From contig JAHWKU010000002.1 in assembly GCA_019347715.1 (NCBI GenBank), positions 1-64,000 of the forward strand: DNA of 64,000 bases, read 5' to 3'. A model generated the notes under the pieces. That model worked only from the letters and a program-made list of their open reading frames with translations, had not been told where the DNA came from and searched no databases. Both the position numbers and the translations under genes were made by a program. Shown here one piece after another: positions 29,912-59,095 of the stretch; within the stretch, counting starts at the first letter, position 1, and each line of letters opens with the position of its first letter. This DNA comes from Actinomycetota bacterium (GTDB lineage Bacteria; Actinomycetota; CADDZG01; JAHWKV01).

Positions 29912-31840
29912 CTACCCTTCGGGCCCGTATGGATTGATGTCGACCGAGTTACCCTGATTGTCGCAGGGATCGTTGGGATTCTGGAAAGCATATGACTTGC
30001 TGTCCCATCGGTTCGCCAAATAGCGTTTCCCTCCGTTGGTGAGTCTCCAGCAACCTAACTCATCTGGGTCGCCATCGGGATCGGGCGCGTTGGGATCCCA
30101 CCAGGCTTCCCTGGCGTCCTTTACGCAGGTGTAGTCGTTGGGATCGAAGAAACAAGCGGCCACATAGGGGCTCGTGCTCTCCTGGACCGGGATGGCGTGC
30201 TGACCCTGATCGACGGTATCGGGCCCCAGAATTGGACCTGCAACCTGAATGGCTTTGAAGAGCATGAAGAAGTCGTGGTAGACCTCGCAGGCTCTTCCGT
30301 AGAAGGTGCCATTTGGATCGGCCTCACGGTAAGCCTGACGGCAAGGCGCAGTCTCCTCTTTGTCTTCCAGCAGATCGTTGCTCATGAGGACCGCGTTACT
30401 CCATACCCGCTGGTTCTGGAAGCGGGCCTTGGATATCTCCCCATGCCACTGATCATGGACCACGAAGATCTCGGGGAAATAGTTCTTCCTCTCCATGGCC
30501 TTTCCATGTTCGACTTCATATCCGGCAGCCCAGATGATGGTCGTTATTCCCTTTCCCTTGATCCTAGCGACGTTTTCCTCTGACTCCGTGAAGGCGTCGG
30601 GATGGGTGTCAACCGAGTATTGATGCCGGGAGAACTTGATCTCGTCAGCGTAGGTTATTCCGCACTGTTGAGTCCCGGTCTTCACCAAGTCCGCAAAGTA
30701 TTTGAACTGCGGGAATCGGTCGTCGGTCGTTCGCATAAAGGCATATTTGCGTGGCTGGCCAACGAGAGAGCGGCCGTCGATAGAGGGGGGATTCGATCTG
30801 CTGCCCTGAACCGTACCTGAGGCCGCTTTAACCCGCGAACAGATGTAGCCAACGTACTGGTCGGCCCAATGCTCGACGTCGGGCCAGAAGTTCCAGATCA
30901 TCCCTCCTGGGAACTTAGGGGGGGCATAGGTTCGGTAGTAGACGTTCGGACGTGGAGGCAGCGCACCGAACGACATCGTCCGGCGCTTGACCATGGCGTC
31001 GGTGTATACATCGTCGAAGCCCCCGAACTGCGGCCGCTGGAGAACCGCGAACGGCTTCAGGCGATCCCAGTTATCTGCCGCTTCCGCTCGTCTGGACGCG
31101 GCGCTCCTGGCCGGGCTCCAGTAGATGATGAAATGGACGTGGCGGTCGTAGGTCTGAAAGCGCTGGTTGAAGTACTTCGAGTAGGCCCTGTAGACCATGA
31201 CGTCCTGCCAGTCGTACCTCAAGCTCTCGCCGCTCCCGTAGTCTCTGGCATGGCAGGTACGGTTGTTGGGATCGTCCTGCGGTGTTTCGACATCGCAGTA
31301 GGTATTGCGGTCGGGAGTGCACTCCACGTTGTTGCTTCTACCTCCCGTAGTGCAGTAGGTATCTGCATAAATAAGAACCATGATTTCTTGCCCTGTAACC
31401 CCCTGCCAAGTCTCGCCACCATTGTCTCCTTCAAAGAACGGCACGCAGGGGGGGGCATTGGGGTCCTCGGTCTGACGCGGGGGATTTCCGACACACCTTT
31501 TGGCAACCGGCTTTTCTCCCTTTGAAGGTCCCGCCGAAGTCCCACCGACCTCGCCGCCCAGGCCCTGTCTCAGCGTCCCGGAAGAACCGAGACCCAGCGC
31601 CGATATGCTGCCCTCGGACGTCGGAGGAGGGGAATCGTCCTCAGGTGGAATGGGAGCGTATTCGAGGACCTGCGAAGGGTTTGCCTGCGGAAGGTTCAGT
31701 GCCGACGGGAGTACTAGGACGACGATGAGCAGCGCTACGACCATCGCTACGAGTGGGGGATAATTCTTGAGCGCTGTCGAGCTCGGTCTCGGGACTTCGC
31801 GCTCGTCGCTCTCGCTGATGGTTCTTTCTTCGTCGGCCAT
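29912..31840 (-). CDS. Membrane-anchored LivJ-like substrate-binding protein, copy A
   Basis: This 642-residue protein has a short cytoplasmic N-terminus, one membrane segment (PPLVAMVVALLIVVLVLPSAL) and a Pro/Gly-rich linker with SALGLGSSG. A periplasmic-binding-protein type 1 fold follows, recognised by TWQGVTGQEIMVLIYAD, DRLKPFAVLQRPQFGG and the late AIQVAGPILGPDTVDQG. It lacks a lipobox, so the receptor is held by a helix. CVGNPPRQTEDPNAPPC precedes the fold and recurs in copy B. As the binding protein diverging from the LivHM/LivFG operon, it is inferred to deliver the substrate. A GGAGGAG lies upstream of ATG 31840. The substrate is unknown. Confidence 0.8.
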   Translation of the reverse strand: MADEERTISESDEREVPRPSSTALKNYPPLVAMVVALLIVVLVLPSALNLPQANPSQVLEYAPIPPEDDSPPPTSEGSISALGLGSSGTLRQGLGGEVGGTSAGPSKGEKPVAKRCVGNPPRQTEDPNAPPCVPFFEGDNGGETWQGVTGQEIMVLIYADTYCTTGGRSNNVECTPDRNTYCDVETPQDDPNNRTCHARDYGSGESLRYDWQDVMVYRAYSKYFNQRFQTYDRHVHFIIYWSPARSAASRRAEAADNWDRLKPFAVLQRPQFGGFDDVYTDAMVKRRTMSFGALPPRPNVYYRTYAPPKFPGGMIWNFWPDVEHWADQYVGYICSRVKAASGTVQGSRSNPPSIDGRSLVGQPRKYAFMRTTDDRFPQFKYFADLVKTGTQQCGITYADEIKFSRHQYSVDTHPDAFTESEENVARIKGKGITTIIWAAGYEVEHGKAMERKNYFPEIFVVHDQWHGEISKARFQNQRVWSNAVLMSNDLLEDKEETAPCRQAYREADPNGTFYGRACEVYHDFFMLFKAIQVAGPILGPDTVDQGQHAIPVQESTSPYVAACFFDPNDYTCVKDAREAWWDPNAPDPDGDPDELGCWRLTNGGKRYLANRWDSKSYAFQNPNDPCDNQGNSVDINPYGPEG

Positions 31841-32099: not shown

Positions 32100-33164
32100 A
32101 TGAGCACTACGAAGTCCAGAAGGCAGGCTGCCCAGACCAGCCAACGAGCGTCGATTGCCACATACGACGCGGGCAACATGAACGCAAAGAAGTTCAAGGA
32201 TCGTTTCGACGCAATCATCGACAACATCGAAACCGTCATCAAAGGAAAGACCGATGTTGTGAGGCTCTCGATGGTAGCCATCATCTGTGAGGGCCACATC
32301 TTGTTCGAGGACGTACCCGGGACCGGCAAGACCATGCTGGCGCGTGCCATTGCTCAATCTATGGACGCCTCCGTCAACCGAGTTTCCTGCACTCCCGACA
32401 TGCTTCCCGCTGATATCACCGGCGCGTCGATCTATGACCAAAAGAGGGGAGTATTCGAATTCAAAGAAGGGCCGGTGTTCTGCAACATCCTTCTTGCGGA
32501 CGAGGTAAACCGCGCGGCCCCCAAGACGCAGTCTGCACTCCTCGAGGCAATGGGAGAAAGAAAAGTATCGGCGGACGGAGTAACTCATTTGCTTCCCCGT
32601 CCGTTCTTCGTTCTTTGCACTCAGAACCCGATCGAGCAAGCCGGAACATTCCCGCTTCCTGAAGCCCAGCTCGACCGTTTCCTCTTCAAGCTCACAATGG
32701 GTTACATGGCGCGCGATGCCGAGTACGAGGTCATGTTCGATAACTCGGTACAGCTCTCGATCGAAGAATTGGCCTCAGTGGTTTCGCCGGATGTGATCAG
32801 TCAGATGATCGCTTACGCGGCTGCCAAGGTGAACGTCGCTAAGGAGATCGGCTATTACATCGTCGACCTGGTCAACGCTTCGCGGCAGGATCCGGCTTTG
32901 GCGCTGGGCGCGAGCCCCCGTGCGTCTATCGCTTTGCTGAGGGCGTCCCGAGCGCTCGCCGCGAGCGACGGGCGGGACCACGTATATCCCGACGATGTGA
33001 GGGCTGTTCTCAAGCCGATTCTTTCTCACCGAGTGATTCTGAATCCCGATGCCATATTGAGAGGCGAGACGATCGATGCAGTAATCGAACGCATCGTTAC
33101 AAAGGTGAAGCCGCCTACCGGGGCCATGAAGGGTTCGAGTCAACCGGCGACGGTGGCGGGTTGA
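32100..33164 (+). CDS. MoxR-family AAA+ ATPase
   Basis: This 354-residue MoxR-type ATPase has Walker A DVPGTGKT at residues 71-78, Walker B ILLADEVNRA with D134-E135, and sensor 1 FFVLCTQNPIEQAGTFPLPE. The C-terminal lid holds QDPALALGASPRASIALLRASRA, the classical MoxR block. MoxR proteins remodel or activate partner complexes, usually with DUF58/VWA proteins encoded beside them. It opens the rightward operon of copy A and has no counterpart in copy B, so it may serve both copies. A strong AGGAGG precedes the ATG. Confidence 0.93.
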   Translation: MSTTKSRRQAAQTSQRASIATYDAGNMNAKKFKDRFDAIIDNIETVIKGKTDVVRLSMVAIICEGHILFEDVPGTGKTMLARAIAQSMDASVNRVSCTPDMLPADITGASIYDQKRGVFEFKEGPVFCNILLADEVNRAAPKTQSALLEAMGERKVSADGVTHLLPRPFFVLCTQNPIEQAGTFPLPEAQLDRFLFKLTMGYMARDAEYEVMFDNSVQLSIEELASVVSPDVISQMIAYAAAKVNVAKEIGYYIVDLVNASRQDPALALGASPRASIALLRASRALAASDGRDHVYPDDVRAVLKPILSHRVILNPDAILRGETIDAVIERIVTKVKPPTGAMKGSSQPATVAG

Positions 33165-33206: not shown

Positions 33207-34550
33207 ATGGCATTCGCAGCAACTAAGAGACCGACAAAATCGAAATACGAAAAAATGTCCGTTAGGAGTCGCGTCCTGGCGTGGTTCGACCGTGTGCGTG
33301 AGTCTCTGGCCGCCGAGCGGATCAGGCAGGTATCCAAAGAGCTCGAACGAAAGATCGGCCTCACACGGTCGGGTCAGATTGCGGTGGTGGCTTTCGTTCT
33401 TCTGTGGATGACGGCCTTCATCGTCGCCGGGACCGCTCTTTACATCGTGGCTTACGGCTGCCTATTCCTTGTGATGGCTTCTTACGCTCTGGCCCGCAGA
33501 AAGATGTCCCTTGAGGCTACTAGAGAAGGGCTATTCCCTCGGGCACACGAGGGCGACCGTCTCGACGTGGAGATGCAACTGACCGCAAAAAAGAGAGTGT
33601 CTACCTTCATCCTCGAAGAGCGGGTTCCCGAACGACTGGGCGCCACTGTGAAAGTGCCGATTCCCAGCCTAGCGGGAGGAAAGACCGTCTCGCACCGTTA
33701 CAGCCTTCGGTGCGCGAGACGCGGCGTTTACGAAGTCGGTCCATTGGTTGCCGTTACGAGCGACCCGCTAGGGCTTACGCAGCGGGAAACGATCGTTGCC
33801 GAAAAGTTCGAGCTGCTCGTTCACCCGAGAATCGAATTCGTCTCCGACCGGCCTCTTACTCGCCAGTATGAAGATCCGCCTATCCGGCCGCCGGTTTCGA
33901 AGCCATGGCCATCTGGGCTGGAGTTCTACGGAATGCGAGAGTACGTTCCCGGCGACGACCTCAGAAGAATTGTTTGGAGGGCGTCCGCGCGAGTAGGAAC
34001 TCTTATGGTTAGAGAGGCCGAACAGGGAATCACCGACCACGTAACGATCGTGCTCGATACCGACCGTACCTTTCACAGTCGCGATGGCTTCGAGTTTTCT
34101 GAGTCATTCGAGATGGGGGTTCGCGCCGCGGCCTCACTGGCCGTTCGACATCTCCGAGAGGGATATGAGGTGCGCTGCGAGTCGAATGCAGGGGCAGTTA
34201 CCAGGCCCGCCAGAGGGCCACAAGCTCAGATGCAGGTGCTCGATGCATTCACTCGCATAGAGCAGAGCCGCGAACCCCTGACGAAAGTGATCATGAGACT
34301 CATTACCGATCCCAAGCGCGACGCACACAACATTTTCATTACTCCGAGACTTGGAGACATCGAAGCGGCACAGTTGAGAATCCTTTTGAACCGCGGGGTT
34401 TCGGTCATGGTGGTCGCGCTCTTATGGGACGAGGAAAACGCAGAAACACTGAATACTGCGGCAGCACTCGGGTGCCAGGTTGCCGGGATCCATCCGGGAC
34501 AAGACTTGGCAACTGCGCTGTACCATGACATCGGAGCAGGAAACCGGTGA
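33207..34550 (+). CDS. DUF58 domain membrane protein
   Basis: This 447-residue protein has a membrane hairpin near residues 55-95 (IAVVAFVLLWMTAFIVAGTA) followed by an extracellular beta region. The DUF58 signature FYGMREYVPGDDLRRIVWRA precedes a vWA-like segment (HVTIVLDTDRTF with the DxD variant of the metal site). DUF58 proteins are the standard partners of MoxR ATPases and of TgpA-type transglutaminases. Its position between MoxR and the pseudotransglutaminase matches that triad. Only copy A has it. Confidence 0.92.
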   Translation: MAFAATKRPTKSKYEKMSVRSRVLAWFDRVRESLAAERIRQVSKELERKIGLTRSGQIAVVAFVLLWMTAFIVAGTALYIVAYGCLFLVMASYALARRKMSLEATREGLFPRAHEGDRLDVEMQLTAKKRVSTFILEERVPERLGATVKVPIPSLAGGKTVSHRYSLRCARRGVYEVGPLVAVTSDPLGLTQRETIVAEKFELLVHPRIEFVSDRPLTRQYEDPPIRPPVSKPWPSGLEFYGMREYVPGDDLRRIVWRASARVGTLMVREAEQGITDHVTIVLDTDRTFHSRDGFEFSESFEMGVRAAASLAVRHLREGYEVRCESNAGAVTRPARGPQAQMQVLDAFTRIEQSREPLTKVIMRLITDPKRDAHNIFITPRLGDIEAAQLRILLNRGVSVMVVALLWDEENAETLNTAAALGCQVAGIHPGQDLATALYHDIGAGNR

Positions 34551-34566
34551 GGAGGTTCAGCCCTTA

Positions 34567-36837
34567 ATGGCGTCCACCCGCGAGGAGACTTCAGAGCTCC
34601 TCGAACTAGAGGAGCACGCCCTCGAACACCTCGAGGAAGACCGGCTCACAGAACCAGTCGAGGCTCCGGAGCCGGAAGAGGTAGAGCCGCCGGTACCAGT
34701 AGGAAGGCTCAGCTTCGTAATCGCGTTTTCGGTTATGGCCGCGGCGGTGATGGTTGGGGGGGTATTCCAGGGCATCGGTGCGAGACCATGGGCGGCATTG
34801 GCCGGGGTACTGGGAATAGTCCTAGCCGCTCGAGTCCACAACCTGAAGAATCCGATTTTTGTCAACCTCTTGATAGTGATCGGAATATTTGGGATAGGCA
34901 TTCTTCTCACGGTCCCGGCAGGGTCTTTCGATGATGTGATCAACCTCGGCCCATTCGTCCGAGATGCAGTTACCTCAGGAGACGTTCAGAGACCACCAGT
35001 CCCATTCGAACTTGGCTGGAGAGCCATTGTTGGCTGGCTAATGGGTGGCCTTGGCTTCGCCGCCGCTTGGATCGCGATCCAGTTGCGCAAGCCCTCCCTC
35101 GGGCTGCTATCGACGCTTCCTGTCATAGCCATCACCGCGATCAGTGTCTCCGACGACACCAAGATCCTCTCGGGACTTTTGTCCATGGTCTTTTTCGCGA
35201 TCGGACTCGGAATCCTCTCCGGAGTCGAGATGGGTGAGGGGGAACAGAGGTCGCTCGGCTATGAACTCAGAAGAGCCATTCGCGCCGTTCCACTGCTGGC
35301 CGTGATTACAGTCGCCCTGTACTTCATGGCCGTGAACAACTTTCTCTTCCCTCAGCCGCGATTCGATCCGACCCAAGAGGCGCAGAGGCCAAAGACGGTC
35401 CCGCTCTCCGAGGTGCCGGACCGGGTCCTCTTCTTGGTGCGTTCTTCCATTACTGGTCCCTGGAAGATGGGCGGTCTCGACGTTTATCAGGACAACCAAT
35501 GGCTCCTGCCGCCGTTCGCCGAAAATCAAATCCGCGAAGTTCCGCAATCTGGAATAGTGGATCCAGAGCTTCAAGCCGGGATTACCGCGACCTTCTCCAT
35601 TCGCGGGCTCGATGGGGCGATCTTGCCCGGTCTTCCCAATCTGGTAGCAATGGTCGCCGAAGGGCCGAGGCTCGCATTTGACTCTCGGACGGGAAACATA
35701 AGGCTTTCTGAAGGCACGATCCAAGCCGGACTGGAATACTCCGTTACTGCCGCCCGGGTTCCGGAGATCGACGAGATTGAGGCTGCTTCCGGCCGAATTC
35801 CCGATAACATTCGGCAGTTTCTCGAGATACCTCCCGCACCTCCGCAAGTTCAGCAGTTACTGGCTCAAGCCCCTACCAACCTCTGGCAGCGCCTGGATTT
35901 CGTCAGACAGAGTCTGCTCCAAAACGCCGTTGCCGCTGGTGCGGGAACTCCGATCGCAGTGCCGCCTGAAAGGGTGGCCGAGATCATCGCCACGAAAACC
36001 GAGGCGACTCCATTCGAGATCGTGGCCGCCCAAGCCATGCTCGCCCGGTGGGCTGGGATTCCCAGCCGTATTGGTTATGGCTTCGACGGGGGAGAGCCCT
36101 CAGGTGAACTTTTGGAGATCCGTCCACGGCACGGAGCTACCTGGCTCGAGGTCTATTTCCCAGGATTCAAGTGGGTTCCGATCATCGGCACCCCATTGAT
36201 CGCGAAGTCCTCCGTAGGTGGCGAACAGACTCAGCAAAACGAGAGTGTTCTCGCTTCCGATGACATCGCCGTAAAGATATTCGTTCCTGTCCAGACGGAT
36301 CCCCGAAGATACCTTTTCGAACAACTCCGCCGAGTAGTTTTTATAGTTGCGCCGATCCTGCTGGCGATCCTGCTGATCTACTACTCCTGGCCGTTTTTCA
36401 GGAAGGCTCAGCTGCGCGCAAGAAGACGTTCTTGGGCTCAAAGCCAGGGTCCGCATGAGCGAGTAGCCGTCGCCTATGCTGACTGGCGAGATCTAGCCAC
36501 CGATTTCGGATACAGCTATACGACTGACACTCCTCTCATGTTCCTGGACCGCGTGGTCGAGGATGCCGAACACACCGAATTCGCCTGGTTGGCTACCCGC
36601 GGCTTATGGGGCGATCTCAGTGGATACTTGACTGATGACGATGCTACCGCGGCCGAGGAGCTCTCGAGGTCGCTGATAAAGAGGATGAACCAGGCTCATG
36701 CATGGACACTGCGATTGATAGCTGCCGTTTCGAGGCTTTCCCTGAGGCATCCCTATGCCCCGGCTCTCGGACGCGAACTTCGCAGGACAGGCAAGCAGGG
36801 GAGAGGGAAAGGACAATATGAAGTCAAAGCGGCTTAG
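34567..36837 (+). CDS. TgpA-like membrane protein with inactive transglutaminase fold and DUF4129-like tail, copy A
   Basis: From ATG 34567 (MASTREETSELLELEEH) the protein has an acidic coiled-coil N-terminus, about seven membrane segments, a large extracellular part, one more membrane helix (IVAPILLAILLIYYSWPFF) and a cytoplasmic DUF4129-like domain. The extracellular core aligns with transglutaminases (AAQAMLARWAGIPSRIGYGF; WLEVYFPGFKWVPIIGTP). The catalytic Cys aligns to P482, the catalytic His to A524 and the catalytic Asp to Ile, so no triad remains. I infer a structural or binding role. A GAGGAGG about 12 nt upstream supports this start over ATG 34525. Copy B (50531) has the same substitutions. 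Confidence 0.85.
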   Translation: MASTREETSELLELEEHALEHLEEDRLTEPVEAPEPEEVEPPVPVGRLSFVIAFSVMAAAVMVGGVFQGIGARPWAALAGVLGIVLAARVHNLKNPIFVNLLIVIGIFGIGILLTVPAGSFDDVINLGPFVRDAVTSGDVQRPPVPFELGWRAIVGWLMGGLGFAAAWIAIQLRKPSLGLLSTLPVIAITAISVSDDTKILSGLLSMVFFAIGLGILSGVEMGEGEQRSLGYELRRAIRAVPLLAVITVALYFMAVNNFLFPQPRFDPTQEAQRPKTVPLSEVPDRVLFLVRSSITGPWKMGGLDVYQDNQWLLPPFAENQIREVPQSGIVDPELQAGITATFSIRGLDGAILPGLPNLVAMVAEGPRLAFDSRTGNIRLSEGTIQAGLEYSVTAARVPEIDEIEAASGRIPDNIRQFLEIPPAPPQVQQLLAQAPTNLWQRLDFVRQSLLQNAVAAGAGTPIAVPPERVAEIIATKTEATPFEIVAAQAMLARWAGIPSRIGYGFDGGEPSGELLEIRPRHGATWLEVYFPGFKWVPIIGTPLIAKSSVGGEQTQQNESVLASDDIAVKIFVPVQTDPRRYLFEQLRRVVFIVAPILLAILLIYYSWPFFRKAQLRARRRSWAQSQGPHERVAVAYADWRDLATDFGYSYTTDTPLMFLDRVVEDAEHTEFAWLATRGLWGDLSGYLTDDDATAAEELSRSLIKRMNQAHAWTLRLIAAVSRLSLRHPYAPALGRELRRTGKQGRGKGQYEVKAA

Positions 36838-37882: not shown

Positions 37883-40225
37883 TTGAAGAGCATTCCGGCT
37901 GGCATTAAAGCGACTATATTTGGCATTGCCTCGGTCGTTGTCCTTTTTTCGATAACTCAGTTCATTTTGCCCGGCAGCGGAGACGGCGGAGGTACGCCGG
38001 GAGCAATCCTATTCAGCGGGACCGTTCTAGGTCTCTTGAATGCCCTGATCACTATGGGTGTGATTCTCATTTATCGGAACATCCGAATCATCAATTTCGC
38101 TCAGGCTGCTATCGGATCCATCGGGGGGGTGTTCACGTACAACTTCACCGTCCTTAACGACTGGCCTTTCCTATTGGCTGCCGTCGCAGGTTTGATCGTT
38201 TCTATCGGCGTAGCTTTGCTCATCGAGCTGGCATTCATACGCAGATTTTTCAATGCCCCCAGGCTTGTGTTAACGGTCATTACCATCGCGTTCATTGCCT
38301 TTCTCACGGGGGCAGCTCAGTACGTGAGCAATCTGCCCATATTCGGACGCGTGGAGGACAGGACCGCTGAGGAACTGGCAGGATCCGAAGTCCTGACTTT
38401 GCCGTTTGCGGACTTTCAATTCACGGTCGGCAGGCTTCCTCTCGACTTTGGGTTTGGACACATTCTCGCCATCGGCGTGTCCTTGGCTGCGATGGTCGGA
38501 GTGGCGTTATACCTGCGTTTTTCCAAGTCGGGAACGGCCATTCGGGCCGTTTCGGAAAATGCTGAGCGGGCTCCTCTTCTCGGCATCAGCATCGGCAAGC
38601 TGTCTCTGCTGGTGTGGGGAATAGCGGGGCTTCTGTCTGGGCTAGCGGTCATTCTGAATGGAGCTGTACTCGGAAGGATCACTCGGGGAGAGGCGCCCCC
38701 CGAGGTACTCCTGACCAGTTTCGCGGCGGCGGTTATCGCGAGGATGCGAAACTTCACGACAGGAATCCTGGCCGCGGTCGGTATCACGATTCTCAGGACC
38801 GCTACTTCCTATAGTTACCGCGAACAGCTTGCCCTATTGGACGTTGGCCTTTTCCTGCTGATCGTCGTTGGTTTGCTCGTGCAGCGAAGAGAGAGAACTC
38901 GCAGTGAGTACGCGGAGGCGTCCAGCTGGAAAGCGGTTGAGGAATACCGTTCAATCCCAAGGGAGATGATGGAGGTTCCGGGGGTCAGGCTTTGGAAGCG
39001 CGGGGCCATCATTGTCGGAGTACTTGCCCTTCTCTCATATCCGTGGCTGGTATCTGTTCGCCAAATTCAACTGGCCGGCTACTTCTTTCTGGTAGGGATG
39101 GTTGTGCTGTCCCTCGTTGTACTCACGGGCTGGGCGGGTCAGGTGAGCATCGGGCAGTTCGCACTGGTGGCCGTAGGAGCTGTAGCCGGGGGGGCCATGA
39201 CCTCACGCGCTGGGCTCTCGTTCTGGATAGCCATCATCGCAGTTCCCCTGCTGGTAGCGGGGCTGGCTGTGCTGGTAGGACTCCCAGCTCTTCGTATAAG
39301 AGGTCTCTTTCTAGGTATCGCAACTTTCGCTCTGGCGATCGCGGTTCATTCTGCTCTTTTCAATGAGCGGTATTTCGGCTGGCTCCTCCCAGAGCGAGTC
39401 GATCGTCCGCAACTTCTGTTACTCAACTTCGAAGAGGAACGGAGCATGTACTACCTCGTACTGGTGGGGGCTATGTTGATGCTCCTGACTGTCGTCGTTC
39501 TGAGGCGATCTCGCACCGGCCGTGTCCTGATCGCTCTTAGGGAGAACGAGACGAATGTTCAATCCTTTGGTGTGAACTTGCTCAGGACTCGTCTGCTTGC
39601 CTTCGCAGTATCCGGTTTCATATGCGGGTTCGCCGGCGTCCTGCTAGCCCACCACCAGAGAGCAGTCACGGAGAGCTCTTTCGAGGCCCAGCTCAGTTTG
39701 GATATCTTCCTCTTCGCCGTAATCGGCGGCGTCGGTTCGATCTCCGGTGCGATGTTGGGAACTGCGTATTTTGCAGGCAGCCAATTGCTCAGTGGCGCGG
39801 AACCGTGGAACTTCATAGTAGGCCCGGTGATGATCCTCACGATTCTCTATGTTGCTCCGGGGGGTTTGGCCGGGCTCTTCTTCGGGCTAAGGGATGGGGT
39901 TCTCCGGATTGTGGCCCAACGGCGGCAAATGCTTGTGCCCGCGCTCTTTTCGGACATGGACCCAGAGGCGATGCGAAACCGGCTCATCCCTCTGGCCGAG
40001 CCCATCCCCAGCGCCGGCCTCAACGCTCTGCCGCTTGACAGGCGGTATCGAGTCTCCTCCGAGGTTTATGGATCCGAAGGCTGGCTACTGGGCTTTGGCC
40101 GAAGGAAGCCACCGAAGGTTAGCGAAGATGAGACCGCACTGAGAGCCGCCGGTGCAGGGACAGAAGAAGTGACCCCGCCGCTCGAGGCTGTTGCTCCGGC
40201 GCCACGAACTGAAGGAGCGTCATGA
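37883..40225 (+). CDS. LivH-LivM fused ABC permease, copy A
   Basis: This 780-residue protein joins the two permease subunits of a branched-chain-amino-acid-type importer. The LivH half (about residues 30-345) has NALITMGVILIYRNIRIINF and the loop ENAERAPLLGISIGKL. The LivM half (about 375-690) has GWAGQVSIGQFALVAVGAVA, LRENETNVQSFGVNLLRTRL and IGGVGSISGAMLGTAYFAG. A cytoplasmic tail of about 90 residues follows. The start is TTG 37883. Its 3' end overlaps the next gene by ATGA, so stoichiometry with the ATPase fusion is likely fixed. Confidence 0.92.
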   Translation: MKSIPAGIKATIFGIASVVVLFSITQFILPGSGDGGGTPGAILFSGTVLGLLNALITMGVILIYRNIRIINFAQAAIGSIGGVFTYNFTVLNDWPFLLAAVAGLIVSIGVALLIELAFIRRFFNAPRLVLTVITIAFIAFLTGAAQYVSNLPIFGRVEDRTAEELAGSEVLTLPFADFQFTVGRLPLDFGFGHILAIGVSLAAMVGVALYLRFSKSGTAIRAVSENAERAPLLGISIGKLSLLVWGIAGLLSGLAVILNGAVLGRITRGEAPPEVLLTSFAAAVIARMRNFTTGILAAVGITILRTATSYSYREQLALLDVGLFLLIVVGLLVQRRERTRSEYAEASSWKAVEEYRSIPREMMEVPGVRLWKRGAIIVGVLALLSYPWLVSVRQIQLAGYFFLVGMVVLSLVVLTGWAGQVSIGQFALVAVGAVAGGAMTSRAGLSFWIAIIAVPLLVAGLAVLVGLPALRIRGLFLGIATFALAIAVHSALFNERYFGWLLPERVDRPQLLLLNFEEERSMYYLVLVGAMLMLLTVVVLRRSRTGRVLIALRENETNVQSFGVNLLRTRLLAFAVSGFICGFAGVLLAHHQRAVTESSFEAQLSLDIFLFAVIGGVGSISGAMLGTAYFAGSQLLSGAEPWNFIVGPVMILTILYVAPGGLAGLFFGLRDGVLRIVAQRRQMLVPALFSDMDPEAMRNRLIPLAEPIPSAGLNALPLDRRYRVSSEVYGSEGWLLGFGRRKPPKVSEDETALRAAGAGTEEVTPPLEAVAPAPRTEGAS

Positions 40226-43200
40226 GCCAGAGCCCTCCGGGTCCCATCGAAGAATCGGCCTTACCTCAATCAGATCAGCGGAGTGACTTGGCGCAACCCA
40301 AATTCATCGAGCGTGGGAAGCTCCAATTCAAGCAGACGATTCGGGAGGCTGCCAACTATAAGGAACTCCGCAAGACTCCGTATGGCTTGAAGCCGGCGAT
40401 CATCTTCATGCTCATTGGAGCTGTCGCGTCATTTGATGCCCGCGTATTCGGGGCTGCAGGCCCGGAAATCCTTCAGGATCTGGACATCCTCGTCACTCCG
40501 GTATTCCAGGCCGGTGCCATAGTCGGGTTTTTCCTCATCCTGTTCGTTCTGGCGCTTGGCTGGCTGGCGGATCGCGTAAAGCGCGTGCCGATCATCGCCA
40601 TAGGCACCATCATTCAGGGCCTCGGCTCTTTTCTCTCCACCCGGGCCGCCGGGGTGGCGAGTTTTGTGATTCCCAGGTCCGTGGACCAAGTGGGGGATAC
40701 CGCAAGGGATGTTCCCTCTACGGCCCTACTCGCGGATTACTACCCGCCGGATCAGCGAGGAAAGGTCTACGCGCTATTCGGAGTGGTGGGAAGAGCCCTA
40801 GGGGTGGCAACACCTTTGATCGTTGCGGTGATGGTCGTGCGGTGGGGATGGAGGCTTCCATACCTCATCTCTGGCCCAATTCTTGTCCTCCTCGGGATCC
40901 TCGCGTGGGTGGTGCTCAAGGAACCAACTCGTGGGTACATGGAGCGAAAGGCCCAAGGACTCCCCGAAGAGGAAGCTCAGGAACCGGAGGAGCCTCCTTC
41001 TTTTGGTGAAAGCTGGAGAACGATATGGGCGATCAGAACCCTTAGGCGGCTGTTCCTAGCCAACATTCCGGGAAGCGCTGCGGATATCGCATATGGATTT
41101 GTGATCGCATTCTTTCTCTTTGAAGTCTATGGGCTTGATGTAACTGAAAGGGCATGGATAGGGGTGGGAATTGCCCTCACCACTTTGCCCTTTGGATTCC
41201 TCGCAGGTGGACTCATCGACGTCCTCCTGAGACGCCGTCCTCAGCGCGTTCTGGTCTTAACAGGAACCCTCACTCTGGTCGCGGCTGTTTTCATTGGAGG
41301 AATGTCGCTGCGTCCTCCGCTTTGGATTCTCATTCTGGCGTTCTTCGGATTCGGGGCGGCAGGAGCGCTCTTGGGTCCGGCCCGCAGCGTACTCATCATT
41401 CAGATACTGCCTGCTCATATCAGGACGACTGGGACGGCCATCTTTACCTTGGCGACAATCCCAGCACAGGTGATTCGTTTCTTCTTAATTGCGTACCTCC
41501 TGAATGTCTACGGTACCGTCGGAGGCCTCTATGCGGCTGCCCCCCTCCTTTTTCTTTCCGGTTTGATAGAGCTATCGGCTGCCGGTTTCTTCGAGCGTGA
41601 TGTTCGAGCCGCAATAGCCTCCCAAGTTGCATCTCAGGAATGGCGGCGTGCTCGCGACGCTGGAAAGGCCAAGCTCCTTGTTTGCCGGGACATCGATGTG
41701 GAATACGACGGAGTACAGGTACTCTTCGGCGTCGATTTCGACGTCGATGAAGGTGAGGTCATTGCTCTCCTTGGTACGAACGGCGCGGGCAAGTCCACTC
41801 TCCTCAAGGCCATCGCCGGTCTTCAGGAGGCATCCTCTGGGGCCGTCGTCTACGACGGACGCGACATCACTCATATCCCTCCGCACGAGATAGCGCCTAG
41901 GGGAGTTGTGTTCATGCCTGGCGGCCGGGGCGTTTTCCCTGGGCTGTCGGTTTCGGACAACCTGATGCTCGGCAACTGGATGAACGATGACAAGGAGGCA
42001 AAGAGAAAGCTCAATGAGGTCTATGAGATTTTCCCAATATTGAAGGAGAGGTCGAGCGCGAAGGCCGGTACGTTGTCGGGAGGCGAGCAGCAGATGCTTT
42101 CCCTGGCTCAATGCTTCCTGTCTACCCCGAGACTACTGATGATTGACGAGCTGTCTATGGGACTTGCGCCCGCCGTCGTGGAACAGCTCATAGCGATCGT
42201 CAAGAAGATCAACGAGCGGGGCGCCACCATTATTTTGGTCGAGCAGTCCGTCAACGTAGCTCTGACGGTGGCCGAGAGAGCTATCTTCATGGAGAAGGGT
42301 GAAGTCAAGTTTGTTGGTAGGACCAATGAACTGCTGGATAGAGCGGACATCCTAAGGGCGGTATACGTCAAGGGAACGGGAGCTCTTACCGCAGGCGCTC
42401 CGGCCGCGGCGCTCAAGACGGAGCGGGAGCTCCGCAGTTACGAGCTTGGTCAGGCGCGGCCAATTCTGCAGGTTCAGCATCTCAGCAAGAAGTTTGGCGG
42501 AATAGTTGCGGTGGACGACGTGAGCTTCGACTTGAGAGAAGGTGAAATCCTGGGATTGATCGGACCCAACGGGGCAGGAAAAACTACCGTTTTTGACTTA
42601 GTAGCGGGCTACCAGGCACCTGATTCGGGGAGGATCATCTACGACGGTGCCGATGTGACTCGGCTTGGACCCGATGAGCGGGCCAAACGAAGGCTGATCC
42701 GGAGATTCCAAGACGCAAGGCTCTTCCCTGCTCTGACGGTATATGAAAACTTACTAGTCGCCCTCGAGCGCAAGCTCGATGTGCGGAATGTTGCGGTCAC
42801 CGCTCTTCAGCTTCCTCAGGCCCGACAGGCCGAGCGCCGCGTACGCCGACGGGCGGATAGACTCATCGAGCTCCTGGAGCTCGGAGGATACCGAGACAAG
42901 TTCGTGAGGGAGCTATCCACAGGTCTCAGACGCATCACTGACCTCGCGTGCGTCCTTGCAACCGAGCCAAAGGTACTCCTTCTCGATGAACCGTCCACTG
43001 GGATTGCTCAGGCAGAGGCCGAGATGCTCGCGCCGCTCCTACGGAGGATCCGGTTCGAGACTGGGTGCAGCATTTTGATCATCGAGCACGACATGTCACT
43101 GATCTCGTCGATTTCAGACGAGCTTCTTGCGATGGACCAAGGAAGCGTTCTTCTCAGGGGCGATCCAACTGAGGTCCTGGACGATGAGCGGGTCATCGAA

Positions 43201-43254
43201 TCCTATCTTGGGACCTCGCAGGACATCATTCAGCGATCTGGGGTGAGGACATGA
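40222..43254 (+). CDS. MFS transporter fused to LivF-like and LivG-like ABC ATPases, copy A
   Basis: This 1010-residue protein has three parts. Residues about 55-460 form a 12-helix major facilitator domain with two motif-A loops (GWLADRVKRVP; GGLIDVLLRRRPQRV). ATPase 1 is LivF-like: Walker A GTNGAGKST 518-526, signature LSGGEQQ 618-624, Walker B LLMIDE 638-643. ATPase 2 is LivG-like: Walker A GPNGAGKTT 781-789, signature LSTGLRR 898-904, Walker B VLLLDE 918-923. The ATPases should drive the LivHM fusion in the preceding gene; what the MFS part carries is unknown. A sequencing join is unlikely because copy B has the same fusion. Confidence 0.93.
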   Translation: MSQSPPGPIEESALPQSDQRSDLAQPKFIERGKLQFKQTIREAANYKELRKTPYGLKPAIIFMLIGAVASFDARVFGAAGPEILQDLDILVTPVFQAGAIVGFFLILFVLALGWLADRVKRVPIIAIGTIIQGLGSFLSTRAAGVASFVIPRSVDQVGDTARDVPSTALLADYYPPDQRGKVYALFGVVGRALGVATPLIVAVMVVRWGWRLPYLISGPILVLLGILAWVVLKEPTRGYMERKAQGLPEEEAQEPEEPPSFGESWRTIWAIRTLRRLFLANIPGSAADIAYGFVIAFFLFEVYGLDVTERAWIGVGIALTTLPFGFLAGGLIDVLLRRRPQRVLVLTGTLTLVAAVFIGGMSLRPPLWILILAFFGFGAAGALLGPARSVLIIQILPAHIRTTGTAIFTLATIPAQVIRFFLIAYLLNVYGTVGGLYAAAPLLFLSGLIELSAAGFFERDVRAAIASQVASQEWRRARDAGKAKLLVCRDIDVEYDGVQVLFGVDFDVDEGEVIALLGTNGAGKSTLLKAIAGLQEASSGAVVYDGRDITHIPPHEIAPRGVVFMPGGRGVFPGLSVSDNLMLGNWMNDDKEAKRKLNEVYEIFPILKERSSAKAGTLSGGEQQMLSLAQCFLSTPRLLMIDELSMGLAPAVVEQLIAIVKKINERGATIILVEQSVNVALTVAERAIFMEKGEVKFVGRTNELLDRADILRAVYVKGTGALTAGAPAAALKTERELRSYELGQARPILQVQHLSKKFGGIVAVDDVSFDLREGEILGLIGPNGAGKTTVFDLVAGYQAPDSGRIIYDGADVTRLGPDERAKRRLIRRFQDARLFPALTVYENLLVALERKLDVRNVAVTALQLPQARQAERRVRRRADRLIELLELGGYRDKFVRELSTGLRRITDLACVLATEPKVLLLDEPSTGIAQAEAEMLAPLLRRIRFETGCSILIIEHDMSLISSISDELLAMDQGSVLLRGDPTEVLDDERVIESYLGTSQDIIQRSGVRT

Positions 43255-48455: not shown

Positions 48456-50336
48456 TCATGCTGGATAGTTGTGGCTGACTCCCTTGACCCCATTACAGGG
48501 TGCCTGCCTGGGATCGCCGAAAACGTCATGGCCGCCCTCCCAGGTTCCCGCGAGATAGCGCTTTCCCCCTCTCACCATCCGATAACACCCCATGACTCCC
48601 TGTTCGCCATTCGGGTCGGGAGCGTCTGGGTCCCACCAAGCTTCATGGGAATCCTTTACGCATGAGTAGTCCCCAGGATCGTAGAAGCACGCTGCCACCC
48701 TGGGGTCGGTGCTGGATTGGCGTGGGATGGCATGCTGACCTTGATCTACGGTGTCAGGAGAGAGGTAAGGACCTGCCACCTGGATCGCTTTGAAGAGCGA
48801 GAAATATTCCCGGTACAGCGTGGTGGCCCAGTATTCGTGGATACGTCGCCCGCGTGGTTCGGCTTCCCTGAACGCTTGTCGAGCCGGGGACTCCTCGAAT
48901 CGGCCCTCTCTCAGTTGCTGGCTGACTACCCACGCGTGGCGCCACGCCCGCTGATTCTGGGCGCGGCCGTTCAATAGGTCGTCTATCGTCCTGTCCCCGG
49001 CTACCACCCATTCGGGGTACCACCCGGCTTTGTCGGCAGCATCGGTGGTTCTGGACTCCATGCCTCCCAGCCAAAGCACTGTGTTCACCTTGGCATCTCT
49101 CATCTCCGCGACGTTTTGCACGGCGAAGGTGCAATCAGGCGCGCACCGGTTATCGATATTTGCGCCGGCGTAGGGGAAGTCAACCTCAGCAACGACATTC
49201 GCTCCGCACTTCTTGATCCCTTGTTCGACCAGCTTCTTGAAGTACTGCAGCCCGGGATGAGAGGAGTCGGAGGTGTACATGAGTCCGTACCTTCGGTCCT
49301 GGCCGTTCATCGGTTGACCGTCTTTGTCGGGCCCTCCCGCATTGGACACCTTGTACGGCACAACTTTCTGACACACATAGCTCGTGTAGAGGTCGGCCCA
49401 GTGCTCGACGTCTGGCCAGAACGAGTACGCCATCGGGGCCAGTCGCCGGAAGAAAGACGCGTCCAGTTCCCCGAAAGAGCCAAAGACCATGGTTCGCCTC
49501 TTGGCCATCGCTTCGGCATAGGCTTCGTTGTAACCTCCGAAAGTGGCCCGATCTAGAACGGCGAAAGGCTTGAGAGCTTCCCAATTCGCCCGCGCGTGAG
49601 CCTTCCTGCCCGACGCCGTGCTTGCGCTTCCCCAATAAAAGTAGATCCTCACGTAGCGGTTGTATGTCTGGTACCGCGAGTTGAAGTATTTAGAGAGGGC
49701 TCTTCCTGCTGCCACCAAAGAGAGCTCCTTCCCGTCGTCGTTTGAGTCTCGGCACCCCGTCTGCTCCGAAGTGGGACGGCCCAGGTCGCAGTACTGTCCG
49801 GTGCGAGTCCCTTCCCCGGCGCTGGTATCTCCTCCCTCGGTCTCGTTTTGGTCGCTGATGAAACTGGAGTGATAGATGATGACCGTGACCTCGTCGCGGG
49901 TGACTCCCTGCCAGGTCTTGCCGCCATTATCTCCTTCGAAGAACGGTTGACATGGAGGAGCGTTCGGATCTTCGGACTGCCTGGGCGGGTCGCCAACGCA
50001 CTTCTTTACCGTCGCTTGCTCGGCCTTGGTTAGTGTCGGCCCAGTCTCTGCTGCAGGGGCATCCGAGGGCAGACTGCTGGTGCTGCCGAGCCCAAGAGAA
50101 GAGATCGCTCCTTCGACCTGTTGTGGCGGCGACTCGTCCTCGGGGGGTACAGGGGCATATTCGAGGACCGTCGAAGGGTTTGACTGGGGAAGATTGAGGC
50201 TCGAGGGAAGAGCCAGGACGGCCAGCAACATCGTTACGATCACCGCGCCAAGAGGGGGATACTGCATTGCCCAGCCCCGACGTGCGGCAGGAGCCGGATT
50301 AGGATCTCTCTCTAAGGAGTCTTCGACTTTTGACAC
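48456..50336 (-). CDS. Membrane-anchored LivJ-like substrate-binding protein, copy B
   Basis: This 626-residue paralogue of the 29912 protein has an N-terminal membrane segment (LGAVIVTMLLAVLALPSSL), the shared linker CVGDPPRQSEDPNAPPC, then TWQGVTRDEVTVIIY, LKPFAVLDRATFGGYNEAYA and AIQVAGPYLSPDTVDQGQHA. The binding fold is intact but the ligand-pocket regions differ from copy A, so a different substrate is plausible. It diverges from the copy B operon. Confidence 0.8.
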   Translation of the reverse strand: MSKVEDSLERDPNPAPAARRGWAMQYPPLGAVIVTMLLAVLALPSSLNLPQSNPSTVLEYAPVPPEDESPPQQVEGAISSLGLGSTSSLPSDAPAAETGPTLTKAEQATVKKCVGDPPRQSEDPNAPPCQPFFEGDNGGKTWQGVTRDEVTVIIYHSSFISDQNETEGGDTSAGEGTRTGQYCDLGRPTSEQTGCRDSNDDGKELSLVAAGRALSKYFNSRYQTYNRYVRIYFYWGSASTASGRKAHARANWEALKPFAVLDRATFGGYNEAYAEAMAKRRTMVFGSFGELDASFFRRLAPMAYSFWPDVEHWADLYTSYVCQKVVPYKVSNAGGPDKDGQPMNGQDRRYGLMYTSDSSHPGLQYFKKLVEQGIKKCGANVVAEVDFPYAGANIDNRCAPDCTFAVQNVAEMRDAKVNTVLWLGGMESRTTDAADKAGWYPEWVVAGDRTIDDLLNGRAQNQRAWRHAWVVSQQLREGRFEESPARQAFREAEPRGRRIHEYWATTLYREYFSLFKAIQVAGPYLSPDTVDQGQHAIPRQSSTDPRVAACFYDPGDYSCVKDSHEAWWDPDAPDPNGEQGVMGCYRMVRGGKRYLAGTWEGGHDVFGDPRQAPCNGVKGVSHNYPA

Positions 50337-50530: not shown

Positions 50531-52825
50531 ATGGCTGCCCCGAAACCACCTTCTTCTCAGCTGCTAGAACTGGAAGAACACGCGCTCGAACAGCTCGAGG
50601 CGGAGGCCAATGCGACGCCCGCGACCGAAGAGCCTGACCAACGGTACGAGGTTCCTCTTCCGGTCGGACGGTTGGCCGGGGTCGTGGCTTTCTCGACAAT
50701 AGCTGGGGCTGTAATGGTAGGGGGAGTATTCCGAGGTTTTGGAGCTCGGCCCTGGGGAGCTGTGGCCGGAGTTCTTGGAATACTTCTCGCGGTCTGGGTC
50801 TTCAATCTCAAGAATCCCTGGACCCTGAATGCTGCAGTCTTGGTCGGGATCTTCCTTATCGGGGTCGTGCTTACCATCCCAGGAGGATCATTCGAGGACA
50901 TCGTCAATCTGGGGCCATTCGTTAGGGAGGCAATCACCTCGGGAGATGTCTTGAGACCGCCCGTTCCATTCACGCTGGGATGGCGCGCCATCCTGGGCTG
51001 GCTCATGGGGGGCCTGGGCTTCACCGCCGGGTGGGTCGCCATTCAATTCCGAAGGCCGGCTCTCGGCCTTGTCGTTCCGCTTCCCATCGTGGCTTTGGGG
51101 GCCATCAGTCTCCCCGACACGGCGAAAATCCCGAGTGGATTGGCTGCCCTCGTGCTGTTAGCGCTCGGCTTGGGTCTCTTGTCGGGGGTGGAAATAGGGG
51201 AGGAGGAGCAAAGGTCTCTTCGGTATGAGGCTCGAAGGGCTATCAGAGCGCTTCCCATGGTCGGAGTGATCGTGCTGTTGCTTTACTTCATGGCGACCCG
51301 AAATATCCTTTTCCCGGCTCCGCGCTACGACCCAACGCAGGAGGCCCAGCAACCGAGGACGGTTCCGCTCTCGGAAGTACAAGACCGAGTCCTTTTCACC
51401 GTGGAGTCTGGAGTCACAGGGCCGTGGAGGATGGGAGCACTCGACATCTATAAGGAGGATGAGTGGCTCCTTCCCCCATTCGCGGACAATCGGATCGAGG
51501 AGGTGCCTGCGGATGGAATCATCGATAGCGAACTACAGCCTGGGCAGCGAGCGACGTTTGTAATTAAGGATCTGGGAGGAGCCGTTCTTCCCGGCCTTCC
51601 TGACCTCGTTGGTCTCATCGCCGAAGGGCCCAGTCTCGCCTATGACTATCGCACCGGGAATATCCGGTTAGCTGAAGGACAGATCCAGCCCGGTCTCGAA
51701 TACACGGTCACGGCTGGGCGAATCCCGAGCGTTGAGGATCTAAAGGTGATCTCGACGAATCCCAGCGCCCTCGAGTGCACCGTTGGCGTTCGGTGTTCCG
51801 AGTACATGAGCATCCCGGATCCTCCGCCCGCGGTCAGTGATCTGCTGAGGCGTGCCCCTATCGATAGCCTCTGGTCCAAGTACGACTTCATCCGAAACGA
51901 GTTTCTGTTAACTGTAGTGGCTGCCGGAGAGGGTACTCCAGTCCCGGTTCCGGTTGAGAAAGTGCAGGACATGCTGGCGGGAAGCAAGGAAGGTACTCCG
52001 TACGAGATCGTTGCTGCTCAAGCCATGCTGGCGCGGTGGGCAGGTATCCCCTCCAGGATCGGATACGGCTTCGATGGAGGAGATCCAGCGGGAGAGCTTG
52101 TGGAAGTCCGTCCCAGGCATGGAGCTTCTTTCGTCGAGGTTTACTTCCCCGGATACAAGTGGTTGCCAATTATCGGAACTCCGTTGCAAGCCCGCTCGGA
52201 TGTATCGAGCGAGAACACCCAACTAAGCGATGAGGTTCTTGCAAGCGACGATATTTCGGTTCAAGTGTGGGTGCCCTTCCAGACCGATCCGAGAACTTTC
52301 CTTTTCGAACAGATCAGGGCAGTCATGGCCGTTTTGGTTCCGATCATCCTTGGTTTGGTGCTCCTCTATTACCTCTGGCCCGGGCTCTACAAGACGGCGT
52401 ACCGGGCCAGGAGGCGAAGCTGGGCGGCAAACAAGGGGCCGAGGGAGCGCATCGCGGTCGCTTATGCGGATTGGCGAGACGTGGCAACCGATTTCGGATA
52501 TCAATATCCCGCAGATACTCCGTTGATGTTTCTGGATCGGGCCACCGAGGATGAAGAGCATACCGAGCTTGCTTGGTTGGTCACGCGTTGCCTCTGGGGA
52601 GATTTCCAGGAGGATCTGTCGGACAACGATGCCCTGACCGCAGAAGAGCTCTCGAGAAGCATCCGAAGAAGGATGAGTCAGGCGCATACATTGAGTCTTA
52701 GGTTCATCGCCGGATTGTCTCGGCTGTCCCTCAGGCGACCCTTCTCACCTGCTTTGAGTCCCCTCGTAGCAAAGGCCATTGAGCAAAGGGAGAGAGAGGC
52801 AAAGGTTCTTGCGACGCGCAGCTGA
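50531..52825 (+). CDS. TgpA-like membrane protein with inactive transglutaminase fold, copy B
   Basis: This 764-residue paralogue of the 34567 protein starts MAAPKPPSSQLLELEEHALE. It has about seven N-terminal membrane helices, an extracellular transglutaminase-like core (AAQAMLARWAGIPSRIGYGF; VEVYFPGYKWLPIIGTP) and a DUF4129-like cytoplasmic tail (ERIAVAYADWRDVATDFGY). The catalytic Cys aligns to P490, the His to Ala and the Asp to Ile. Because both copies lost the same three residues but kept the fold, the loss pre-dates the duplication. Confidence 0.85.
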   Translation: MAAPKPPSSQLLELEEHALEQLEAEANATPATEEPDQRYEVPLPVGRLAGVVAFSTIAGAVMVGGVFRGFGARPWGAVAGVLGILLAVWVFNLKNPWTLNAAVLVGIFLIGVVLTIPGGSFEDIVNLGPFVREAITSGDVLRPPVPFTLGWRAILGWLMGGLGFTAGWVAIQFRRPALGLVVPLPIVALGAISLPDTAKIPSGLAALVLLALGLGLLSGVEIGEEEQRSLRYEARRAIRALPMVGVIVLLLYFMATRNILFPAPRYDPTQEAQQPRTVPLSEVQDRVLFTVESGVTGPWRMGALDIYKEDEWLLPPFADNRIEEVPADGIIDSELQPGQRATFVIKDLGGAVLPGLPDLVGLIAEGPSLAYDYRTGNIRLAEGQIQPGLEYTVTAGRIPSVEDLKVISTNPSALECTVGVRCSEYMSIPDPPPAVSDLLRRAPIDSLWSKYDFIRNEFLLTVVAAGEGTPVPVPVEKVQDMLAGSKEGTPYEIVAAQAMLARWAGIPSRIGYGFDGGDPAGELVEVRPRHGASFVEVYFPGYKWLPIIGTPLQARSDVSSENTQLSDEVLASDDISVQVWVPFQTDPRTFLFEQIRAVMAVLVPIILGLVLLYYLWPGLYKTAYRARRRSWAANKGPRERIAVAYADWRDVATDFGYQYPADTPLMFLDRATEDEEHTELAWLVTRCLWGDFQEDLSDNDALTAEELSRSIRRRMSQAHTLSLRFIAGLSRLSLRRPFSPALSPLVAKAIEQREREAKVLATRS

Positions 52826-59000: not shown

Positions 59001-59095
59001 CGGATCCTGCCGAAGTTCTCAACAACGAGCAGGTGATCCAGTCCTACCTCGGTACATCTGAAGACGTCATTCAAAGAAGCGGGATCAGAAAATGA
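56054..59095 (+). CDS. MFS transporter fused to LivF-like and LivG-like ABC ATPases, copy B
   Basis: This 1013-residue paralogue of the 40222 protein has an MFS domain in the first 450 or so residues (GWLLDRTHRVR; GGVVDALTRRRPQRV). A LivF-like ATPase with Walker A GTNGAGKST at 520-528, LLSGGEQQ and LLMIDE follows, then a LivG-like ATPase with GPNGAGKTT, signature LSTGLRR and VLLLDE. All ATP-binding and hydrolysis residues are intact. MPGGKGIFPGLSV replaces the usual LivF PEGR-type Q-loop-proximal block, as in copy A. This protein and LivHM together make a complete importer, with an MFS carrier added. Confidence 0.93.
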   Translation: MSIEDLESDPSTGSRVKGGLEPKFMVGGRASLGSIFKEAANWSLLKKTPYGLVPAVVLAVAGLFQAFDSVAFGIVGPDIVRDLELDLPKVLIALNIVGFFMIFGTLLLGWLLDRTHRVRLVSLATILSGAFSLITTRARTEPMLGVARAGDAVSETAADIPRFSLLTDYYPPEVRGRLFALMGTLRKAATLAAPLFIGYVVVATTSDPNHPNWRLPFFVTAPGLILVGFLMMFILKEPIRGYMERRAIGLSEEDSKKAEQPPSFGEAWRTIWSIRTLRRFFIAAAISGVGSLIYLRLFQFFLAERYGLDTFQRGILSAIAALFVVFGGYLGGGVVDALTRRRPQRVLIFYGMLGIVSSLFLFVQAAGPPIVILAGGLAMFAFFGALLGPAGAVIIAQILPAHIRSQGLAVFVLTDIPATILFFVVTGQLNDWGLQGVLFAGAPFVLLGSIVALTAADVFERDMRAAIASQAASQEYRSARESGRAKLLVCRDIDVEYDGVQVLFGVDFDVDEGEIIALLGTNGAGKSTLLKAIAGSQEASSGAIVADGRDITHMPPDEIARRGISLMPGGKGIFPGLSVTENLILGQWAFDSEEARDRMQEIYRIFPVLKERGKEQAGLLSGGEQQMLSLAQAFLSNPRLLMIDELSLGLSPAVTQQLIEIVKAFHERGTTVILVEQSVNVALTVAKKAIFMEKGEVKFVGNTEDLLSRPEILRAVYVKGTGGLTDSHSSSRTLKSQREVRKHELDSARAVLEVKDLTKRFGGITAVSNVSFSLREGEILGLIGPNGAGKTTVFDLIAGYQFPDSGRIVYDGTDVTAMGPDERARLGLIRRFQDARLFPSLSVFENILMALDLKIDVRSMALTAVQVPQVRAAERRVRLRAERLVEVLDLQAYRDKFVRELSTGLRRITDLACVLASEPKVLLLDEPSTGIAQAEAEMLAPLLRRIRFETGCSILMIEHDMPLITSVSDELLAMDQGQTVVRADPAEVLNNEQVIQSYLGTSEDVIQRSGIRK

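Follow-up and report, generated by a model that had tools for sequence, protein, structure and literature searches.

Introduction

ATP-binding cassette (ABC) and major facilitator superfamily (MFS) proteins form the two largest transporter superfamilies, and they are classed apart by energy source, ATP powering the ABC systems and ion gradients, or no energy source, the MFS carriers. The Liv/HAAT importers (LivFGHM, UrtBCDE; TC 3.A.1.4) are built from a LivH/LivM permease pair, LivF and LivG ATPases with asymmetric motifs, and a Peripla_BP_6-type binding protein. Among the Spns/spinster carriers (HnSpns, SPNS1, SPNS2; TC 2.A.1.49), which have the MFS fold, the function of HnSpns depends on D41 in transmembrane helix 1 (TM1), on R122 and E129 in TM4, and on the motif A relay D87-R91-D142 (PMC9440201). 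We analysed a stretch of 64,000 nucleotides (hereafter the window; positions 1 to 64,000 of contig JAHWKU010000002.1, assembly GCA_019347715.1, Actinomycetota bacterium) in which one gene, termed copy A, encodes both energy classes in a single chain, namely a Spns-like MFS domain followed by a LivF-type and a LivG-type ATPase. A second such gene, copy B, lies downstream in the same window.

Results

One reading frame joins an MFS domain to two Liv-type ATPases

A first-pass annotation, made from the letters of the window, had placed at 40222-43254 a 1010-residue frame with MFS, LivF-like and LivG-like parts. These coordinates proved exact; the frame lies on the forward strand, begins with ATG, and runs for 1010 codons without an internal stop. 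Pfam recognised MFS_1 (1.3e-31, from residue 63) and two ABC_tran domains (5e-62). NCBIfam assigned the first ATPase to LivF/UrtE models (residues ~485-716) and the second to LivG/UrtD models (~746-998), and no family among its best 25 matches spanned the MFS part or the entire chain. A chance open reading frame (ORF) or an overlapping gene on the opposite strand was ruled out by the strong Pfam E-values and by a reverse strand rich in stops within the frame. Copy B had the same arrangement downstream of its own LivHM gene, and the MFS domain was covalently joined to the importer ATPases in both copies, as had been proposed. Its identity to copy A was 45% in the MFS domain, 77% in LivF and 77% in LivG.

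The annotation had named a frameshift or assembly join between residues 460 and 490 as the finding that would overturn the fusion. Independent assemblies contained this junction in ~78 distinct homologous genes, and the inspected loci in six single-contig genomes (G038, G052, G333, G414, G547, G571) carried the identical architecture. The HemE protein of the window contig was 57-63% identical to sequences of the genome's own order versus 46% to sampled members of the class of G052, and the contig was therefore taken to be correctly binned. On these grounds an artefact of sequencing or assembly was ruled out, the probability we leave to it being negligible.

The partnership of the chain with a LivH-LivM permease fusion turned out to be nearly universal. 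A LivHM gene adjoined 73 of the 78 distinct fused genes and overlapped by 4 nt in 34 cases; the remaining five genes were at contig or locus ends or showed only a fragment too short for scoring.

The joint between MFS and LivF

AlphaFold2 modelled three domains in the full chain (mean predicted local distance difference test score, pLDDT, 83; predicted TM-score, pTM, 0.64). One helix, residues 412-479, within which DSSP did not separate TM11 from TM12, passed via TM12 into the linker and ended immediately ahead of the first LivF strand, with pLDDT of 83-94 over residues 441-480. In 67 of 71 proteins, 56-58 residues separated the end of the MFS domain from the LivF Walker A motif (full range 52-59). 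The LivF to LivG spacing varied from 53 to 89 residues, and the linker between the two ATPases was disordered in the model (pLDDT <50 at 716-727). The modelled helix, with its conserved length, argues for a defined geometry over a floppy tether, and the near-constant spacing is the strongest hint that the position of the MFS domain matters. Judged by its sequences, MFS-LivF has long existed as one unit, which is under selection and has an almost fixed spacing.

Distribution, layouts and history of the fusion

The source genome is a metagenome-assembled genome (MAG) of 2.43 Mb with five such loci. Besides copies A and B, it carried three more-distant relatives, an MFS-LivF-LivG gene at C22:144190 and MFS-LivF genes on contigs C44 and C13, each of the latter two adjoining a LivH-LivM-LivG gene. 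Within its own class, the source genome alone of 24 carried fused loci (E<=1e-75; 0 of 23 relatives), a patchy distribution that would fit lateral gain or repeated loss. In a sample of 395 genomes from the class of G052, the MFS subfamily was found at E<=1e-50 in 118 genomes (~30%) and in 75 of 184 genera. Many Actinomycetota/Acidimicrobiia MAGs in a named genome collection were additional bearers. Several public MAGs titled Bifidobacterium breve had Acidimicrobiia-type loci (L041, L043, L052, L056, L061) and are presumably mislabelled.

Two layouts were distinguished. Type I consists of LivHM and MFS-LivF-LivG, and type II of MFS-LivF and LivHM-LivG, with the genes in either order. The MFS domain was essentially always N-terminal to LivF, and it was LivG whose position shifted, behind LivF in type I and behind LivHM in type II. 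Matches to the MFS profile of at least 188 bits were fused in nearly every case, and unfused MFS proteins in 247 genomes of the phylum scored at most 148 bits, with the exception of one derived stand-alone gene. Nine short frames from the 395-genome list were inspected; most were explained by contig ends or an N-run, one was an ordinary MFS-LivF gene and one a clear stand-alone (L160/L173). Subfamily genes that apparently stand alone, with LivF and LivHM not nearby, were seen at L139/L174 (G028) and L160/L173 (G448). At L152:2069-5539, LivHM and MFS-LivF were accompanied by no recognised LivG within the 14 kb examined, a possible single-ATPase-type variant.

Quick tree searches with SH-aLRT branch supports placed types I and II as sister clades within a larger Liv clade in the LivF tree. 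In the MFS tree the two types were again separated, and 60 fused rows grouped with a support of 99. Since both gene trees group the same two types, MFS and LivF have probably stayed together from a single fusion onwards, and one ancient fusion followed by divergence is the simplest reading of the two trees. Independent fusions in types I and II are not favoured by either tree. The most divergent fused row (L146) lay outside the grouped types and might be a separate fusion. Two loci nested in the type I clade (L038:1307-5271 and L039:5729-9701) consisted of LivHM and LivF-LivG fusions without the MFS domain, which suggests secondary loss of that domain. The annotation had stated that MFS carriers have no ATPase; this stands for the known families, against which the fusion is unusual, but the fusion is no local oddity, being ancient and common in its lineage.

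The MFS domain

The MFS part was modelled and searched separately because whole-chain Foldseek searches were dominated by ABC matches. The MFS-only model (pLDDT 88, pTM 0.84) gave HnSpns and SPNS2 as its best Foldseek matches, with a TM-score of 0.81 to the inward-open SPNS2 structure 8ex4. Similarly, the family profile matched HnSpns (6e8j, 8.6e-39) best in the PDB, followed by SPNS1. By phmmer and the family alignment, the HnSpns positions correspond in copy A to D72, R152 and D159 and to the relay D117-R121-D172; the D72/D41 pairing was made by motif, as the phmmer alignment starts after that position. The positions of D41, R122 and E129 were filled in both copies by an acid, an Arg and an acid, the last being D159 in copy A and E in copy B. 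A Gln (Gln156) stands in copy A where the RxxxG motif has Gly.

Over 77 fused members the relay was nearly invariant (D117 in 71, R121 in 77, D172 in 76). D72 and R152 were each kept in 27 of 29 type I members, and in 24 and 33 of 48 type II members, respectively. The most conserved residues were cytoplasmic or at helix ends (P81, D117, R121, D172, P235, R237, P397, R401), and the central cavity was variable. P198, R310, P340 and R401 of copy A were conserved in fused members, whereas unfused relatives mostly lacked this conservation; these positions are possible contact sites. By prediction, R310 lies where TM8 ends on the outer side and R401 at the inner start of TM11. In close pairs, the ratio of nonsynonymous to synonymous substitution rates (dN/dS) of the MFS domain was mostly 0.03-0.2, near the LivF values, and this sign of purifying selection argued against a degenerate passenger. 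The domain probably still works as a carrier, its pocket having diversified.

The ATPases and the importer family

The Walker A (GTNGAGKST in LivF, GPNGAGKTT in LivG) and Walker B (MIDE and LLDE) motifs were intact in both ATPases, in agreement with the earlier reading, and the signatures were LSGGEQQ and LSTGLRR. LivF carries Gln (VEQ) as its H-loop residue, and LivG departs from the consensus in its signature. As free-standing LivF and LivG proteins of the comparison set had identical deviations, these reflect the normal Liv asymmetry rather than decay, and one consensus and one degenerate ATP site, normal for the Liv family, would be expected. Two markers of the fused-clade LivF were also noted, DELS in place of DEPS after Walker B (Walker B region at window 42139-42165) and PGG in place of PEG near the Q-loop.

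The features of the Liv/HAAT family were largely present, namely LivH/LivM permease domains, distinct LivF and LivG with catalytic motifs, and a Peripla_BP_6-type binding protein. The binding proteins of type II loci matched Pfam directly, and those of the window type matched the family only via profile-profile comparison. A plain member would have no extra carrier domain, and here the MFS domain sits on LivF; by its domain content the system is a variant of the Liv/HAAT importer and not a plain member.

Partner genes and surroundings

The features of the window are collected in Table 1. The window binding protein at 48456-50336 had no match in Pfam alone, and its family matched Peripla_BP_6 proteins by hhalign (96.6%); by this comparison the window-type binding proteins are distant Peripla_BP_6-type members. 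The region 28875-59095 is a tandem duplication of an entire cluster, with a secreted protein, a binding protein, a TgpA-like protein, a lipoprotein, LivHM, MFS-LivF-LivG and lipoproteins as its content, and with MoxR and DUF58 on the copy A side only. MoxR/DUF58/TgpA neighbours marked a type I subclade that includes both window copies.

Table 1. Features of the window, with coordinates in window positions
Feature	Position	Strand	Remarks
Membrane-anchored extracellular solute-binding protein, copy A side	29912..31840	-	642 aa; 48% identical to 48456-50336
MoxR AAA ATPase	32100..33164	+	AAA_3 3.7e-60; present in 7/17 type I loci
DUF58 protein	33207..34550	+	present in 7/17 type I loci
TgpA-like transglutaminase-fold membrane protein	34480..36837	+	start codon uncertain; homologue at 50531-52825; 6/17 type I loci
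LivH-LivM permease fusion, copy A partner	37883..40225	+	780 aa; BPD_transp_2 x2, 4.9e-49; 4-nt overlap with gene at 40222
MFS-LivF-LivG fusion gene, copy A	40222..43254	+	single ORF, 1010 aa, Pfam, AlphaFold2
MFS (Spns-like) domain	40390..41601	+	residues 57-460, 12 TM helices; Pfam MFS_1, HnSpns 6e8j match, Foldseek HnSpns/SPNS2
MFS-LivF linker	41602..41670	+	residues 461-483; helix continuous with TM12 (AlphaFold2), near-constant length in family
LivF-type ATPase	41671..42369	+	residues 484-716; NCBIfam UrtE/LivF; PDB 1ji0 1.2e-59
LivF-LivG linker	42370..42453	+	residues 717-744; start disordered, length variable
LivG-type ATPase	42454..43230	+	residues 745-1003; NCBIfam LivG/UrtD; PDB 1g6h, 1gaj
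Membrane-anchored extracellular solute-binding protein, copy B side	48456..50336	-	626 aa
Second TgpA-like protein, copy B side	50531..52825	+	TgpA_N and Transglut_core domains
LivH-LivM permease fusion, copy B partner	53739..56057	+	57% identical to copy A partner
MFS-LivF-LivG fusion, copy B	56054..59095	+	1013 aa

Of the 28 type II loci, 24 had a binding protein nearby, as did 9 of the 17 type I loci, several of the latter being too short to judge. The neighbours of type II loci included acyl-CoA ligases (7 of 28) and CoA-transferases (4 of 28), and a 2-enoate-reductase was also present in a minority of loci. In a closed type I genome (L140), two ligases, an enoyl-CoA hydratase and a thiolase-like gene surrounded the locus. 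For members with such CoA-enzyme neighbours, lipophilic or hydrophobic carboxylic acids are a reasonable guess as substrate. The neighbours do not point to a single substrate for the whole family, since CoA genes occurred only in a minority of loci and the window subclade has MoxR/DUF58/TgpA.

Discussion

The reading we favour, with moderate confidence, is a Liv-type binding-protein-dependent ABC importer to which a Spns-like second carrier is permanently tethered. The MFS-LivF-LivG chain would pair with LivHM, the usual LivF/LivG dimer lying beneath LivH/LivM, and ATP would power binding-protein-dependent uptake via LivHM. The MFS domain would stand beside LivHM in the membrane, held by the helix that links TM12 to the first LivF strand, and the fusion would set its position and a 1:1 stoichiometry. 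Through the MFS domain, a hydrophobic or anionic compound, either the one taken up by LivHM or one linked to it in metabolism, may cross the membrane by a second path, perhaps as a second mode of uptake, in exchange, or as product export. This path would probably be energised separately from LivHM. Since copies A and B keep all three Spns protonation and gating positions, an ordinary proton-driven carrier is possible there, and we regard it as plausible for these two copies. Mechanical coupling of the MFS domain to ATP hydrolysis is possible. The annotation had put forward two roles, control of the MFS part by ATP hydrolysis and coupled two-step transport with a counter-solute, and both are to be read as hypotheses.

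Several points weigh against the tethered-carrier reading. The L038 and L039 loci keep LivHM and LivF-LivG without the MFS domain, and the ABC core can thus exist alone. The E129 position was acidic in just 8 of 77 fused members; the switch is not conserved family-wide, and many members may therefore not be proton-driven. The type I MFS domain diverges fast, as the comparison of copy A with copy B illustrated. The evidence on substrate is weak, and the neighbours in the window are MoxR, DUF58 and TgpA, not CoA enzymes. The structural models are of single chains. Finally, transport, binding or structural data were found for no member of the family.

The MFS domain might instead have ceased to transport and act as a membrane domain for docking or sensing that positions or regulates the LivF/LivG motor, in the manner of the TMD0 of some ABC exporters. 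The conservation of cytoplasmic and helix-end residues around a variable cavity, the loss of D72 and R152 equivalents in some type II members, the helical link of nearly fixed length, and the conservation of R310, P340 and R401 in fused proteins and mostly not in unfused relatives would all suit such a role. However, the gates of alternating access, motif A and the charge relay, hardly vary, type I mostly retains D72 and R152, and conserved gates around a variable cavity also fit a working carrier whose substrates have diversified. We consider this alternative rather unlikely. The near-constant spacing and continuous helix could also serve a direct drive, in which ATP hydrolysis gates or powers the MFS domain and LivF motion through the linker helix makes it a primary pump. 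Carriers that have gained ATPases are known as precedents (ArsB with ArsA, BioY with ECF ATPases). The neutral or basic residue at the E129 position of most members, which removes the known energy input of Spns (PMC9440201), speaks for such a drive. However, an acid at this position was mostly missing in unfused relatives as well (2 of 7 acidic), and the idea that the proton switch was lost as a consequence of fusion was dropped for this reason. Copies A and B retain D72, R152 and D/E159, LivHM already serves as the cognate permease of both ATPases, and ABC ATPases in general contact their permease by coupling helices and not by the N-terminus. We find a directly driven MFS domain quite improbable, and give the same low standing to a primary-secondary hybrid transporter, in which one ATPase dimer would serve the LivHM and MFS pathways at once through a rigid helix.

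A fusion of convenience, in which two independent transporters of the same pathway are co-produced 1:1 without functional contact, would agree with the general observation that pathway partners are often joined by gene fusion, and LivH-LivM and LivM-LivG fusions also occur in this lineage. On the other hand, deep divergence has left the MFS domain attached at one and the same end of LivF, by a linker of near-constant length; LivG, by contrast, switches chains with loose linkers, and clear stand-alone derivatives amount to only two (L139/L174 and L160/L173). This explanation is more doubtful still.

The family offers a natural system for asking whether an ATP-driven importer can gate, or exchange with, a secondary carrier, and L038 and L039, as probable natural losses of the MFS domain, would be useful controls. 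The fusion is apparently a single old event, which selection has maintained across many genera of an actinobacterial lineage that is widespread and for the most part uncultured. In these bacteria, a large number of genes would be misread if labelled by one domain only, as 'MFS transporter' or as 'ABC ATP-binding protein'.

Comparison with known systems

We would class the system as a variant of the Liv-type ABC importer that carries a Spns-like MFS domain, and it has apparently never been studied; no description of the MFS-LivF architecture was found in the open-access literature, subscription papers and TCDB lying outside the search, and prior notice is possible. It resembles the Liv/HAAT importers in its LivH/LivM pair, in the asymmetric motifs of LivF and LivG, and in its Peripla_BP_6-type binding protein. 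It differs from them in the fusion of LivH to LivM and of LivF to LivG (or of LivHM to LivG), and in the 12-TM MFS carrier N-terminal to LivF, which is absent from that family. Likewise, the MFS domain shares with the Spns/spinster carriers the fold, the motif A relay (D117/R121/D172), an EPxRG motif after TM6, the TM1 Asp and TM4 Arg in most members and, in copies A and B, an acid at the E129 position. Identity in structure alignments is, however, ~14-19%, most fused members have lost the E129 proton switch, and the domain is joined to an ABC ATPase. Two further comparisons come from general knowledge. The TMD0 of SUR, TAP and TAPL likewise adds a membrane domain to an ABC system and may serve in docking or regulation, but it consists of a small bundle of helices on the permease side, whereas here a whole carrier fold sits on an importer ATPase. 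ArsAB and ECF/BioY offer a precedent for carriers that acquire ATPase partners; unlike the present system, they are not MFS proteins, are not fused in this way, and have no second permease such as LivHM.

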